Shown here: piece by piece, positions 44,985 through 48,133 of the stretch
Layout of the letters: each line of letters opens with the position of its first letter
How positions within the stretch are numbered: the first letter of the stretch is position 1
Origin: Chitinophagales bacterium
GTDB lineage: Bacteria; Bacteroidota; Bacteroidia; Chitinophagales; Chitinophagaceae
NCBI GenBank assembly: GCA_030832645.1
Contig: JAURIR010000008.1
Location: 1-48,637 of the forward strand
DNA: 48,637 nt
Direction: 5' to 3'
Translations under genes and position numbers: made by a program
The notes under the pieces: model-generated
What the model saw: the letters and a program-made list of their open reading frames with translations, nothing else
What the model was told of the DNA's origin: nothing
The model's database searches: none

Positions 44985-45749
44985 ATGAAGCAATCCATTT
45001 TACTCGCTTTATCCATTCTGTACGTCTCAATCACCGTTGCTCAAACAAGTTCCGATTCTACCACTAAACCTCTACAGATCAACGGAACCATTGGACTCAC
45101 CAACAACGGGATATCAATCATACCAACATTTTCATTGAATGCACCTGCCACTCTCTTCAATTTTTCCATCAGAAAAAATCGGCTGTCGTTCGATCCTGAT
45201 ATACGTCTCGCCTTGGATGGTAGGAAGGGTGGTATGTTATTTTGGTTTCGCTATAAATTCATTCAGCAGAAAAAATTTAATTTGAGCGCAGGCATTCACC
45301 CTGCTTATAATTTTGCATTGAGAACAATTACTGAAAGCGGGAAAACCTGGCAGATCACTCAAGCCAGAAGATTTATTGCATATGAAATAGCTCCAAGCTT
45401 TGTACTTTCCAAACACCTCAGCGTAGGACCTTATTTACTAAGAGGTATGGGATTGCAAAAAGACGGACCGATATCAACTGTTTTCCTTGCATTCAATACC
45501 AATATATCGAATCTAGCGCTTGGAAGCCATGTACGATTTTCGTGGACTCCTCAATTTTATTATCTCTATTTGGATAAGAAAGAGGGTTTTTATATGGCAA
45601 ATATTTTAAGATTATCGCATACAAAGTCGCCTTTTTCACTGCAATCGGTCATGAACAAAGAGTTCACGTCTACTATTTCTGGAAGTAAAAATTTCGCCTG
45701 GAATATTATCTTGAACTATTCCTTTGGGCATCAGTATATAAGAAAGTGA
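44985..45749 (+). CDS. Exported protein, probable small outer-membrane beta-barrel
   Basis: I do not recognise the family. The 254 residues start with a signal peptide (MKQSILLALSILYVSITVAQ). About 220 residues rich in alternating aromatic strands follow (KGGMLFWFRYKFIQQKKFNL, HLSVGPYLLRGMGLQ). It ends NIILNYSFGHQYIRK, consistent with a 10-12 strand outer-membrane barrel. It is divergent from the DUF5723-like gene and just upstream of the tRNA/GIY-YIG unit. Confidence 0.75.
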   Translation: MKQSILLALSILYVSITVAQTSSDSTTKPLQINGTIGLTNNGISIIPTFSLNAPATLFNFSIRKNRLSFDPDIRLALDGRKGGMLFWFRYKFIQQKKFNLSAGIHPAYNFALRTITESGKTWQITQARRFIAYEIAPSFVLSKHLSVGPYLLRGMGLQKDGPISTVFLAFNTNISNLALGSHVRFSWTPQFYYLYLDKKEGFYMANILRLSHTKSPFSLQSVMNKEFTSTISGSKNFAWNIILNYSFGHQYIRK

Positions 45750-45776
45750 GTTTACTTGATTAATTTTGTCTTCAGC

Positions 45777-45856
45777 GGTCCCGTAGTTCAACGCCTGCCT
45801 GCCGAAGGCAGGGATAGAATATCTACCTTCGGTAGACAGGGAAGTTTCCTAAACTT
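45777..45856 (+). pseudogene. Truncated tRNA-Arg(CCU) 5' copy carrying two 19-nt hairpin insertions
   Basis: With 45794-45812 and 45822-45840 removed, the remaining 42 bases are identical to the first 42 bases of the intact tRNA-Arg at 46137-46178. Homology begins exactly at tRNA position 1 and stops inside the 3' side of the anticodon stem. The T-arm and acceptor 3' strand are absent, so it cannot make a tRNA. The insertions fall between the two D-loop Gs and between positions 26 and 27. Confidence 0.85.
45794..45840. repeat. Pair of inverted 19-nt hairpin elements with compensating differences
   Basis: Insertion 1 (45794-45812) is a hairpin CCTG-CCTGCC-GAA-GGCAGG. Insertion 2 (45822-45840) is the reverse complement of CCTG-TCTACC-GAA-GGTAGA. 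The two differ at four positions, which form two base pairs (C-G to T-A, G-C to A-T), so the stem is kept in both. They are separated by nine tRNA-derived bases. This resembles a miniature REP-like palindromic element. Confidence 0.75.
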
Positions 45857-45869
45857 GATATATATTAAG

Positions 45870-45901
45870 TTGTAGGATATGAAATTGAGAAGATAAATTT
45901 G
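45870..45901 (+). promoter_or_regulatory. Promoter for the GIY-YIG gene
   Basis: TTG (45870-45872), a 21-base spacer and TAAATTTG (45894-45901) form a complete Bacteroidota-type promoter. The -7 box ends 5 bases before the GTG start, so the transcript would be essentially leaderless and could continue into the tRNA. Confidence 0.6.
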
Positions 45902-45906
45902 ATTTT

Positions 45907-46146
45907 GTGATTGAGGTGTATGCAATTGTGAGTGAAAAGAATAGTGATATTTATGTTGGAATGGCTTTAAGTGCTCTGCGAAGACTTAAAGAGCATAATA
46001 GTGGAAAAAGTAAATACACTAAAGGGTTAAGGCCCTGGAGATTATTCAAAATTGAATATTTCCCAGATTGGTCATCAGCTAGAGTTCGTGAAAAATATTT
46101 GAAATCAGGAGTTGGCAAAGAATTTCTGAAATCATTGGTCCCGTAG
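45907..46146 (+). CDS. GIY-YIG nuclease-domain protein embedded at a tRNA gene
   Basis: This 79-residue protein is a minimal GIY-YIG domain: EVYAIVSEKNSDIYVGMALS (degenerate GIY and YVG), the Arg in LRRLKEHN, SKYTKGLRPWRLF, and the metal-binding Glu in VREKYLKSGVGKEF. The family includes homing endonucleases and UvrC-type nucleases. It starts with GTG and has its own promoter. Its stop TAG is inside the intact tRNA-Arg (10 base overlap; the last codons GTC CCG are tRNA bases). A broken copy of the tRNA 5' half lies upstream. Placement suggests it belongs to a tRNA-associated mobile unit; nuclease activity is untested. Confidence 0.85.
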   Translation: MIEVYAIVSEKNSDIYVGMALSALRRLKEHNSGKSKYTKGLRPWRLFKIEYFPDWSSARVREKYLKSGVGKEFLKSLVP

Positions 46147-46211
46147 TTCAACGGATAGAATAGAAGTTTCCTAAACTTTAGATCCCAGTTCGATTCTGGG
46201 CGGGACTACCA
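46137..46211 (+). tRNA. tRNA-Arg (anticodon CCU)
   Basis: The sequence folds into a complete cloverleaf. The acceptor stem is GGTCCCG with CGGGACT (first pair a G-U wobble), the D-arm GTTC/GAAT with loop AACGGATA, and the anticodon stem GAAGT/ACTTT with loop TTCCTAA, so the anticodon is CCT. The variable loop is AGAT and the T-arm CCCAG/CTGGG with loop TTCGATT. Discriminator A and an encoded CCA follow. CCU reads AGG (Arg). Its first 10 bases are shared with the end of the GIY-YIG ORF. Confidence 0.95.
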
Positions 46212-46221
46212 ATCTTTAGAG

Positions 46222-47610
46222 GTGTTGAAGTACATAGTAACTATTTTCTTTTGTATATCCCTTTTCACCAGCATCTTTGCTCATCCCGGCGGACACTACA
46301 AACAAAATAAGGATGTGTTGAATCAGTGGGAATTGAAAGACGGAAAAATTGTTAAAGGAAACTTTTCTTTTTCCATAAACAAAGAAGTATACCTCGAACA
46401 ATACAACGGAAAAATAATTTCTTATACACTGGGACAATTTTCAAATCAGGATCAGTTGTTCCTGAAAGAAAAAATTAGAAGAGCTGCACAATTCAATCAG
46501 CAACCATTTGCATTTACCAAGTCAACGCCCATCAATAAAAATCCTTCTATTATACTATTGACCATTCTTTTGATCGGATTTGTTTTTCTACTATATCAGA
46601 TCCCAACAGAAAGATTTATACCATCCACTACACTGTTCCAACACCTGAGACCAATTATAGCTGGAAGCTTTGTACTCATCTATATTATTGCATGCACAAA
46701 AAAAGAAACAACTACTCCTTCCAACATCAATAATAATTCGTCGTCTAGTATTCCCAAAACAAGAATAACCTTTCTTGATTCAGCGTTCCAACTATACAAG
46801 CCTGCAATTTCCACCAATTCAGATAATACCTATTATTATGTAGCGGGAAACGGGATCCCTACTCATGGAATGATGATTGGCATTACCAGCTGGCAGCAGC
46901 AAGTCCCCATTCCACAAGCGTATACCGGATCAAACAGTTGGTCGATTCCACTTCAACCTTCGTATGCAACTACTCCTTTGAGTACCAAATCAAATTTGAT
47001 GAAAGGCGCTGTTGCTATTGCCATCAATGGTATACCCATCTTCAATGCACTCAATAACAGAGGCGAAGACTCCTATGCTATTGGTGAATTAGATAATTGG
47101 GGAGGACATTGCGGAAGAGCCGATGACTACCACTATCATGCTGCACCTATGCACCTGAATGAAAGCACCCCAAAACTTCCTATAGCAATTGGACTGGATG
47201 GATTCTCTGTATATGGATCTAAAGAACCGAATGGAAATATGATGAATGCACTAGATACCTGCCATGGACATATTGGCGACGATGGAATTTATCATTATCA
47301 CGGAACATCAACTTACCCTTATGTAATAGGAGCGATGAAAGGAAAGGTAAATCTAGATCCCTCCACTCCCGCTCCCGAAAATCAAATCCTGCCTCAGGCA
47401 TTTGCAAAAGCTGCAAGGCCAGCATTGACTCCCTTGAAAGGCGCAGTGATTACCGACTTCAAAGCTAATGGAAGTAATGGTTATAACTTAACGTATAAAA
47501 TCGGAACTAAATTTGGTTACGTGAATTACAGTTGGGATGCGAATAATAAATTTACCTATACGCTCATTGATACAGCCGGCGTTTCAACAACGACAACATA
47601 TCAACGATAA
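46222..47610 (+). CDS. SHD1-like domain fused to a YHYH-domain (lipo)protein
   Basis: The 462-residue protein starts with GTG 10 bases after the tRNA CCA. Residues 1-20 are a signal peptide. Residues 34-85 (NQWELKDGKIVKGNF, QYNGKIISYTLGQFSNQDQL) resemble an SLA1-homology-1 (SHD1) domain. A membrane segment follows (about 109-125). Residues 143-158 (RPIIAGSFVLIYIIAC) look exactly like a lipoprotein signal with Cys158. The C-terminal domain has two YHYH motifs (303-306 and 357-360), two Cys (297, 347) and the HCGRADDYHYH / TCHGHIGDDGIYHYHG pattern of YHYH proteins. It therefore looks like two exported proteins fused. Function unknown. Confidence 0.78.
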   Translation: MLKYIVTIFFCISLFTSIFAHPGGHYKQNKDVLNQWELKDGKIVKGNFSFSINKEVYLEQYNGKIISYTLGQFSNQDQLFLKEKIRRAAQFNQQPFAFTKSTPINKNPSIILLTILLIGFVFLLYQIPTERFIPSTTLFQHLRPIIAGSFVLIYIIACTKKETTTPSNINNNSSSSIPKTRITFLDSAFQLYKPAISTNSDNTYYYVAGNGIPTHGMMIGITSWQQQVPIPQAYTGSNSWSIPLQPSYATTPLSTKSNLMKGAVAIAINGIPIFNALNNRGEDSYAIGELDNWGGHCGRADDYHYHAAPMHLNESTPKLPIAIGLDGFSVYGSKEPNGNMMNALDTCHGHIGDDGIYHYHGTSTYPYVIGAMKGKVNLDPSTPAPENQILPQAFAKAARPALTPLKGAVITDFKANGSNGYNLTYKIGTKFGYVNYSWDANNKFTYTLIDTAGVSTTTTYQR

Positions 47611-47616
47611 TGCCTT

Positions 47617-48039
47617 CTAAGATGAGAGATGCTTATTCGCAAACTCCCTGCAATAATCTTTGATCATTTCTCTTACCTGTGTAAATGCTTGCTGGATTTC
47701 TTCATCTGTTCCCGTTGCCTTTGCGGGATCTGGAAAATTATAATGAAATTTTTGTGCCCTGGTAGGAAAATAAGGACAACGTTCTTTCGCATTGTCGCAT
47801 ACAGTCATCACAAAATCAAAATCGACATCTTGATACTCTAACACATTGTTTGAAGTGTGAGACGAAATATCAATGCCGTCTTCCTGCATCGTTGCGATGG
47901 CTTTGGGATTGACTCCGTGGGTCTCAACTCCCGCACTATAAACCTCTGCCTTGTTCCCTGCAAAATGCTTCAGATATCCATGTGCAATTTGACTACGGCA
48001 ACTGTTACCGGTGCATAAAATCAGTACTTTCTTTGGCAT
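47617..48039 (-). CDS. arsC: Arsenate reductase, thioredoxin-coupled (LMW phosphatase fold)
   Basis: The 140-residue protein has the P-loop LCTGNSCRSQIAHGYL (Cys9, Cys14, Arg15). It also has the two resolving cysteines in VCDNAKERCPYFP (Cys81, Cys88) and the acid FPDPAKATGTDEEI. These are the features of Staphylococcus-type ArsC, which reduces arsenate to arsenite using thioredoxin. A protein tyrosine phosphatase would lack the extra cysteine pair. No arsR, arsB or acr3 lies adjacent in the window. The start at 48039 is preferred, since a promoter box sits inside the longer frame. Confidence 0.92.
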   Translation of the reverse strand: MPKKVLILCTGNSCRSQIAHGYLKHFAGNKAEVYSAGVETHGVNPKAIATMQEDGIDISSHTSNNVLEYQDVDFDFVMTVCDNAKERCPYFPTRAQKFHYNFPDPAKATGTDEEIQQAFTQVREMIKDYCREFANKHLSS

Positions 48040-48056
48040 ATGCAAGTTTGAATCTC

Positions 48057-48064
48057 CAAAATTA
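48057..48064 (-). promoter_or_regulatory. -7 promoter element for arsC
   Basis: The minus strand reads TAATTTTG, a full TAnnTTTG match, 17 bases before the arsC ATG. It supports the shorter 140-residue ArsC. Confidence 0.45.
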
Positions 48065-48133
48065 TAAATCGGAAAACTATTCCATGTTAATTCTGCATTA
48101 TTTTTTACATTAGTATCCACCAATTGCTGCCAT

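Follow-up and report, generated by a model that had tools for sequence, protein, structure and literature searches.

SegB of phages T4 and T6 appears to be the closest precedent for the element described here: it is a free-standing GIY-YIG homing endonuclease that cleaves inside tRNA genes and, in phage T6, is needed for the tandem amplification of the tRNA+segB unit (available text of PMC13096335). The SegB motif, given there as RAWTSGAAC (PMC13096335), reads GTTCSAWTY on the other strand, which is close to the tRNA T-loop consensus, the site of several hairpins of the present family. Both systems have a GIY-YIG nuclease gene beside tRNA genes and form tandem units with the nuclease. SegB, however, is phage-borne and, in the available part of its description, comes with no hairpin-bearing remnant or duplicated half-tRNA, whereas the present family is chromosomal and its nuclease measures about 80 aa.

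Integrative elements and islands use tRNA genes as attachment sites, leaving an intact tRNA and a fragment. The units studied here resemble them in being inserted at a tRNA gene and in leaving an intact tRNA with a leftover fragment; unlike them, they measure ~300-450 bp, consist mostly of a GIY-YIG ORF, come with 5' as well as 3' fragments and carry a hairpin in the fragment, and a 360-bp unit with a 240-bp GIY-YIG ORF offers no room for a site-specific recombinase. As in REP/RAYT systems, to go by the accounts available, short palindromes are tied in sequence to one nuclease clade and dispersed copies lie away from the nuclease; unlike those systems, the protein is a GIY-YIG and not a Y1 transposase, and the hairpin is part of a tRNA remnant that flanks the gene on one side. 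The minimal single-domain GIY-YIG fold is shared with the prokaryotic Slx1-like/UPF0213 proteins, whose description, in the part available, makes no mention of tRNA loci, multicopy arrays or hairpins (PMC1564403). The family reported here is real, and the open-licence literature that we searched yielded no description of such tRNA-remnant GIY-YIG elements; we place it among the free-standing homing elements, there being a considerable chance that it forms a category of its own.

The tRNA-Arg(CCU) locus and its nuclease

The DNA analysed (hereafter the window) is a stretch of 48,637 nt from a Chitinophagales bacterium (GenBank assembly GCA_030832645.1, contig JAURIR010000008.1). In it, the tRNA-Arg(CCU) gene is now present as two copies, one truncated and bearing hairpins and one intact, with a nuclease ORF between them on the same strand, as follows:

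45761..45768, + strand: TAnnTTTG promoter-like box TAATTTTG, 5' of the remnant
45777..45793, + strand: remnant, tRNA-Arg(CCU) positions 1-17, by sequence comparison
45794..45812, + strand: hairpin 1, 19 nt, CCTGCC family, CCTGCCTgccgaAGGCAGG, in the D loop, zero tRNA bases lost
45813..45821, + strand: remnant, tRNA positions 18-26, by sequence comparison
45822..45840, + strand: hairpin 2, 19 nt, TCTACCttcGGTAGA + CAGG, between tRNA positions 26 and 27
45841..45856, + strand: remnant, tRNA positions 27-42, cut short towards the ORF
45894..45901, + strand: second TAnnTTTG box TAAATTTG, just 5' of the ORF
45907..46146, + strand: GIY-YIG nuclease ORF, 79 aa, 240 bp, GTG start (Pfam GIY-YIG, E=1.4e-14)
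46137..46211, + strand: intact, uninterrupted tRNA-Arg(CCU), by tRNA call

Base 1 of the upstream copy is at 45777, exactly 360 bp 5' of base 1 of the intact tRNA, and when the two 19-nt inserts are omitted the copy is identical to tRNA positions 1-42 at 42/42 bases; 5' of base 1 the two copies diverge (TCAGC vs TCATT). The stop codon of the nuclease ORF lies inside the intact tRNA. A preliminary description of the locus had reported the exact 42-base copy 360 bases upstream, its beginning at tRNA base 1 and the 79-residue GIY-YIG ORF running into the tRNA, all of which stand; the two insertions that it removed from the copy are likewise present, and both prove to be hairpins, a property of which it had made no use. 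The 17-nt and 16-nt repeat blocks (BLAST E=3e-5 and 1e-4 within the 3.2-kb locus), together with their order and spacing, exclude a chance repeat.

The TAnnTTTG motif, which we take to be the Bacteroidota -7 promoter box, was found within 45601-46250 at 45761 and 45894 and nowhere else, and the box at 45761..45768 is probably the native tRNA promoter. Rfam returned tRNA as the only match in 45300-46700, with no other RNA type; the tRNA being uninterrupted as well, the locus does not have the make-up of a group I intron. Since tRNA-Arg(CCU) has a single match in its own genome (assembly 93% complete), this tRNA presumably must stay functional. Downstream lie genes for a YHYH-domain protein (46222-47610) and for a protein with a low-molecular-weight phosphatase domain (Pfam LMWPc; 47617-48123).

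The encoded protein falls within the GIY-YIG superfamily by its PF01541 match (E=1.4e-14) and by residues Y5, Y16, R26 and E62 which, together with G18, H30 and K66, are invariant in a 41-row alignment. Its predicted model (pLDDT 93.7) is a bare GIY-YIG domain, nearest to UPF0213 and Slx1; the nearest solved structures are UPF0213 BH0048 (the sole match at E<=0.001) and Slx1. I-TevI and UvrC rank lower, with weak E-values. Slx1 acts on branched DNA, as the title of the matched structure entry has it, an activity that would fit the recognition of hairpins by the window nuclease. Neither Pfam nor NCBIfam placed the unit's own protein in a Y1 (RAYT) family, Pfam giving GIY-YIG only. The median dN/dS over nuclease pairs was 0.15 (156 usable of 569 pairs), and between members of the same array the values were mostly low (0.04-0.37 among the pairs listed, with an exception of 0.71 at dS 0.02).

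In the genome to which the window belongs (G000), five GIY-YIG matches were found: two fall in longer frames (610 aa and 466 aa) and three in stand-alone genes. All three stand-alone genes (3/3) lie on the same strand as an adjacent tRNA and have a partial tRNA copy on the ORF's other side, the tRNAs being Arg CCU (the window), Val UAC (locus L001) and Met CAU (locus L004). The order is reversed in L001 and L004, which show the intact tRNA, the ORF and then the tRNA 3' part with its 3' flank; each of the three partial copies bears a hairpin, and the intact copies are without one. A fourth locus (L115 78-322, contig C196) consists of tRNA-Leu(CAA) followed by two tandem 3' fragments at the contig end, both of which have a CCTGCC-family hairpin in their T loop; its nuclease gene may be missing from the assembly, since the contig ends there.

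Distribution, layout and empty sites

Relatives of the nuclease were present in 39 of the 60 neighbourhood genomes, with 0-11 copies each (model of three proteins; G055:C7:22557, G059:C28:9 and G038:C7:81763 were left out of the 60-genome locus set), and in 214 of 395 genomes sampled across the Bacteroidota (41-row model, E<=1e-15), where at most 13 candidates per genome were scored and copy numbers are lower bounds. A same-strand tRNA stood near the ORF in 46/50 stretches from this phylum search, some of which overlap. A scan of named genomes returned at least 552 relatives of the Arg-type subset. For the best 80 of these at least 552, we found (i) 59 with tRNA and remnant, some by short alignments, (ii) 13 with a nearby tRNA and no detected remnant, (iii) one with a tRNA at 402 bp, and (iv) seven with none, five of these at contig ends. 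The same best 80 included the isolates Terrimonas pollutisoli, Ekhidna lutea, Salinimicrobium sediminis and Winogradskyella aurantia and, outside the Bacteroidota, several Patescibacteria (CPR) lineages and one Omnitrophota. Viral contigs contributed eight loci, one of which adjoins a tRNA.

Taken over all loci, 255 distinct ORFs scored at least 50 bits. At 80 bits or more there were 220, of which 172 had tRNA and remnant, 16 had a tRNA within 300 bp and no remnant found, 19 were cut by the locus end and 13 had neither tRNA nor remnant found. The nine ORFs at 67-80 bits comprised four with tRNA and remnant, three with tRNA only, one cut and one with neither, and the 26 at 50-67 bits comprised six, none, five and 15, respectively, so that the weaker-scoring subfamily is mostly not tRNA-linked. 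The 172 ORFs, with 5' or 3' fragments, bear out the expectation of the preliminary description that further GIY-YIG ORFs beside tRNA genes would have a matching fragment; its corollary, that the ORF would not be met without one, holds for most copies but not for the 16 of 220 with a tRNA and no remnant found. Thirteen stand-alone GIY-YIG ORFs at 54-64 bits (L076-L095) were without tRNA or remnant nearby, and this subfamily is possibly a non-mobile relative or a different element.

By side, 74 of 147 loci were counted as 5' type and 73 as 3' type; the earlier notion of an element that brings its own 5' half thus applies to the former and not to the latter. The elements are found at tRNA genes of 15 isotypes and on either side of them (Arg 40, Met 27, Leu 18, Asn 11, Asp 10, Val 9, Ala 9, Ser 7, Glu 5, Phe 4 and Pro 2; Lys, Cys, Gln and Gly one each; one unassigned). 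Remnants of the 5' type are without the last tRNA bases in 80/84 cases and start at position 1-2 in 75/84, those of the 3' type are without the first four bases in 93/98 and reach the tRNA end in 90/98, and truncation is usually on the ORF-facing side. The proposal that the nuclease cuts in the anticodon stem finds no support: position 42 is only the junction of remnant and ORF, an end that varies widely, and the hairpins sit in the D loop, the T loop or the anticodon arm.

Complete genomes contain tandem arrays of the ORF plus remnant, with up to five evenly spaced units: five at 450 bp beside tRNA-Leu (L195), five at 315 bp beside tRNA-Asp (L196), five at ~365 bp beside tRNA-Met (L197) and three at 350 bp beside tRNA-Arg (L200). 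Each of these has one intact tRNA at one end, which leads the 3'-type arrays and closes the 5'-type one. Units of both types occur in 4/147 loci (L045, L224, L259 and L275). Among three loci without a called tRNA that were read in detail, the intact tRNA is absent from the stretch in L173 and L203 and its 5' half is missing in L024; Rfam, run on 13 loci in which no complete tRNA had been recognised, returned one partial tRNA and no other RNA type.

Some loci depart from this layout. L203 (genome G352) is an array of two units with 5' remnants of tRNA-Leu and a 106-nt exact direct repeat on both flanks, the stretch being without an intact tRNA; the array sits at a site having ~10 bases in common with the tRNA start. 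We set this repeat aside as proof of mobility, as a rearrangement through the ~10-base shared stretch can explain it. In L136 (116-1573, genome G021), a pair of genes with HTH_17 and PIN domains replaces the GIY-YIG ORF between an intact tRNA-Arg(CCU), 99% identical to that of the window, and its 3' fragment. L137 (800-1575, genome G026) has tRNA-Arg(CCU) and a 3' remnant with a compound hairpin in the T loop, the intervening DNA lacking a GIY-YIG ORF and encoding DUF6370 on the opposite strand. L163 (1347-1575, genome G041) has no ORF and consists of the 5' flank and a tRNA-Arg 5' half with a hairpin, followed immediately by the same flank and the intact tRNA.

Of the 73 5'-type loci, 33 have the TAnnTTTG box ahead of the remnant (3.1 expected from shuffles), and five each have it ahead of the intact tRNA (1.6) or the ORF (1.4); the ORF's own promoter, claimed in the preliminary description, is matched by the box at 45894 in the window, but such a box is the exception among 5'-type loci. 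In the 3'-type loci, the box stood before the intact tRNA in 30/71 (2.6) and before the ORF in 2/72 (2.7). About half of the loci show no box and are uninformative on promoters. From these positions, the 5'-type remnant seems to start at the native gene start and the ORF to be transcribed as part of the tRNA unit. Such co-transcription, which the boxes fit, and the strong purifying selection, which mostly extends to arrays, would suit host nuclease genes that have been domesticated to profit from tRNA promoters, the remnants and hairpins being scars of unrelated duplications and of neutral palindrome insertion. We regard this as most improbable in view of a copy number of 0-11 among relatives, of clades that span phyla, of the 15 isotypes, and of remnant hairpins which, as shown below, are far denser than in flanks and match the nuclease clade, neither of which neutral insertion predicts.

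The distribution strongly suggests that the family is mobile. Empty sites among related genomes, on which the preliminary description had made its proposal depend, do exist. Genome G013 gave no match to the nuclease model and has a bare tRNA-Arg(CCU) 57 bp past the stop of the upstream gene, vs 387 bp in the window; this upstream neighbour encodes a protein 80% identical to its counterpart in the window, and the comparison covers the 5' side of the site, the G013 contig ending at the tRNA. In five more genomes, a homologue (34-39% identity) of the next gene upstream lies beside a bare tRNA-Arg(CCU). By tRNA adjacency, the syntenic empty site and the five bare loci, the family thus has what marks homing elements, namely a nuclease gene by its presumed target and alleles without the nuclease.

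Hairpins and nuclease clades

Counting one unit for each of 85 loci, we found a perfect stem of at least 8 bp in 28/85 remnants, 0/85 intact tRNAs, 0/85 ORFs and 2/162 flank windows; for stems of at least 7 bp in the same 85-locus set, the numbers were 55 remnants, 18 intact tRNAs, 5 ORFs and 7 flank windows. The hairpins belong to three families, CCTGCC..GGCAGG, TCCGCC..GGCGGA and TCCCG..CGGGA, one of which is carried by 139/182 units under loose patterns, while 43/182 fit none. Among the 182 units, 71 hairpins have exact 7-nt tRNA flanks on both sides; within these, 30/31 of the CCTGCC class are plain insertions that leave the tRNA bases complete, and 40/40 from the remaining classes take the place of 3-18 tRNA bases, often those of the anticodon arm. 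A gap-based extraction, which gave a folded insert in just 55/120, many hairpins replacing tRNA bases, is superseded by these stem and flank-based counts. The inner arms of the TCCCG class are self-complementary (0.76 vs 0.36 for re-paired arms), and those of the two other classes show no complementarity above re-paired arms (0.33 vs 0.33; 0.32 vs 0.44).

The view that the inserts are unique to the window is true just for the exact 19-mer at up to 3 mismatches, and CCCGATAGCTATCGGG at L004 is likewise unique at up to 1 mismatch. The CCTGCCTGCCGGCAGGCAGG family has 5 matches in its own genome at up to 2 mismatches, two of them in the tRNA-Leu array. Across 32 genomes, a 20-mer from the CCTGCCTGCCGGCAGGCAGG-family search was absent in 9/11 without the nuclease and had at least one match in 15/21 with it.

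On a protein tree of 145 proteins (one unit per locus, 79 columns, many forks unresolved; 32 without a hairpin label), the hairpin family changes 7 times over the 113 classified rows (least possible 2; shuffled mean 43), the isotype 35 times (15 states; shuffled 94) and the side 20 times (shuffled 49). Each label was compared with its own shuffles because the numbers of states differ, and the hairpin is the most tightly clustered, with the caveat that near-copies inflate clustering and that there is some correlation between hairpin family and isotype. The 63 CCTGCC rows by themselves still contain 11 isotype changes. The tree is suggestive rather than final in indicating that the hairpin family follows the nuclease clade. 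As local tRNA sequence separates hairpin and ORF, their travelling together across switches of target and side calls for the two to be inserted in a coupled way or for selection that favours the cognate hairpin. This clade test and the density in remnants vs flanks rule out palindromes merely collecting in neutral DNA. Besides Bacteroidota, the clade linked to tRNA-Leu contains Saccharibacteria, Falkowbacteria, Doudnabacteria and Jorgensenbacteria and, by spanning Bacteroidota and Patescibacteria, indicates transfer.

Four Val-type elements, each from a different genome, share a nearly conserved hairpin region in which the inner hairpin is exchanged; the terminator varies among genomes, yet matches between the two copies of each element. 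These four remnants, nearly unchanged and with compensating changes, could be taken as the mark of a tRNA-like RNA made with the nuclease and acting as guide, decoy or antitoxin, and the frequent replacement of exactly the anticodon arm, by which a tRNA-like fold remains, would agree. We consider such a role at the RNA level very unlikely, as remnants are found on either side of the ORF and are mostly incomplete at one end (80/84 of the 5' type, 93/98 of the 3' type), and as the known GIY-YIG enzymes, to our knowledge, act on DNA.

Proposed homing and possible palindrome mobilisation

On balance we lean towards reading the locus as a minimal mobile element that lives inside tRNA genes and spreads by nuclease-driven homing, with a cognate hairpin interrupting the remnant. 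The nuclease would break uninterrupted tRNA genes in one of the arm loops; repair templated by a copy with the element would insert the nuclease gene and duplicate part of the tRNA, this partial duplication regenerating one functional tRNA; the clade-specific hairpin would interrupt the site in the remnant and so spare the remnant from recutting; and repeated breakage and repair of the intact tRNA would add further units of nuclease and hairpin remnant, building tandem arrays. The miniature homing-type element of the preliminary description is in keeping with the tRNA-tied nuclease, the patchy presence and the empty site, its cleavage and mobility being what we infer from sequence comparison.

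Support for homing comes from the layout common to 3/3 stand-alone genes and 172/220 ORFs, the invariant active-site residues, the dN/dS of 0.15, the patchy copy number, the syntenic empty site, the arrays, the hairpin-rich remnants, the match of hairpin and clade, the clade common to Bacteroidota and Patescibacteria, and the SegB precedent; the observed arrays are what self-homing could leave. It is weakened by the 13/220 ORFs with neither tRNA nor remnant, the 16/220 without a found remnant, the 43/182 units outside the three hairpin families, the existence of loci without an intact tRNA, and the fragments with other or no cargo. Homing by homology alone, moreover, does not explain a clade that switches isotype or side while keeping its hairpin family. 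Its weak point is donor protection, for nothing seems to set the intact tRNA apart from one in an empty site: the filled locus of G019 has exactly the 73-nt tRNA of the empty-site genome G013, so that the intact tRNA bears no visible mark of a resistant allele, and several 3'-type loci (e.g. L001, L008 and L012) have identical 3' flanks after the intact tRNA and after the remnant. Given this identity and these flanks, simple donor protection does not explain the survival of the intact tRNA. If homing is the right reading, a large share of Bacteroidota genomes (nuclease in 214/395; tRNA linkage checked in 50 stretches) would hold a selfish element in their tRNA genes, in which a nuclease of ~80 residues parasitises RNA genes that must stay functional, and phage SegB would have a chromosomal counterpart.

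Palindromes of two families also occur dispersed, with 853 matches vs 121 for the reversed patterns in 60 genomes, counts that include remnants and in which overlapping matches of one palindrome can count twice. Their median density was 3.67 per Mb in the 39 genomes with the nuclease vs 1.25 in the 21 without (P = 2e-5; control P = 0.78), the genomes being related and the P value not independent. Cognate palindromes together with dispersed copies, as known from REP/RAYT systems, are thus present by the tree test and the reversed-pattern control, again with remnants among the counts. Within an IS3-type transposase gene of genome G008 (L119 1054-1073), a 20-bp CCTGCC-family palindrome lies where the frame is split, the first half giving an HTH_21 match below the cut-off and the other rve (Pfam). 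No uninterrupted relative of this region was found in 60 relatives, and coverage was at most 18% among the plasmid records listed; insertion of the palindrome is accordingly read from the split frame and the Pfam halves.

A second reading, not mutually exclusive with homing, is that the nuclease is a dedicated mobiliser of ~14-20-bp palindromes and inserts its cognate palindrome into hairpin loops, tRNA genes being its home since their arms are hairpins, and the partial tRNA duplication letting the cell survive. We hold it to be possible but doubtful. It explains better than homing the clean insertions (30/31 of the CCTGCC class) and the dispersed copies (853 vs 121, and denser with the nuclease), and it agrees with a hairpin that follows the nuclease clade through switches of isotype and side and with the interrupted transposase frame of G008. 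It is harder to reconcile with the other hairpin classes, which replace 3-18 tRNA bases (40/40), and with dispersed matches in genomes without a detected nuclease (G007 11, G047 12, G058 11, G028 14 with control 8); the inclusion of remnants, possible double counts and the kinship behind the P value also tell against it, and we know of no strand-transfer chemistry for GIY-YIG enzymes. We put forward only tentatively, then, that palindromes are mobilised independently of RAYT, by minimal GIY-YIG nucleases that would recognise and spread clade-specific hairpins with tRNA genes as home sites, and that would be the missing mobiliser of dispersed short palindromes in Bacteroidota and Patescibacteria. 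Were this so, the family would be a candidate mobiliser for short palindromes without an assigned enzyme, e.g. the CGTC repeats, which are said in the available text to be without a dedicated transposase (PMC3733652). The coupling of nuclease clade and hairpin also bears on structure-specific DNA recognition.

Finally, hairpins of the form TCCCGA..TCGGGA are abundant and dispersed in genomes G038 (37) and G037 (19), against 0 for the reversed control, and the GIY-YIG matches there are weak or partial.
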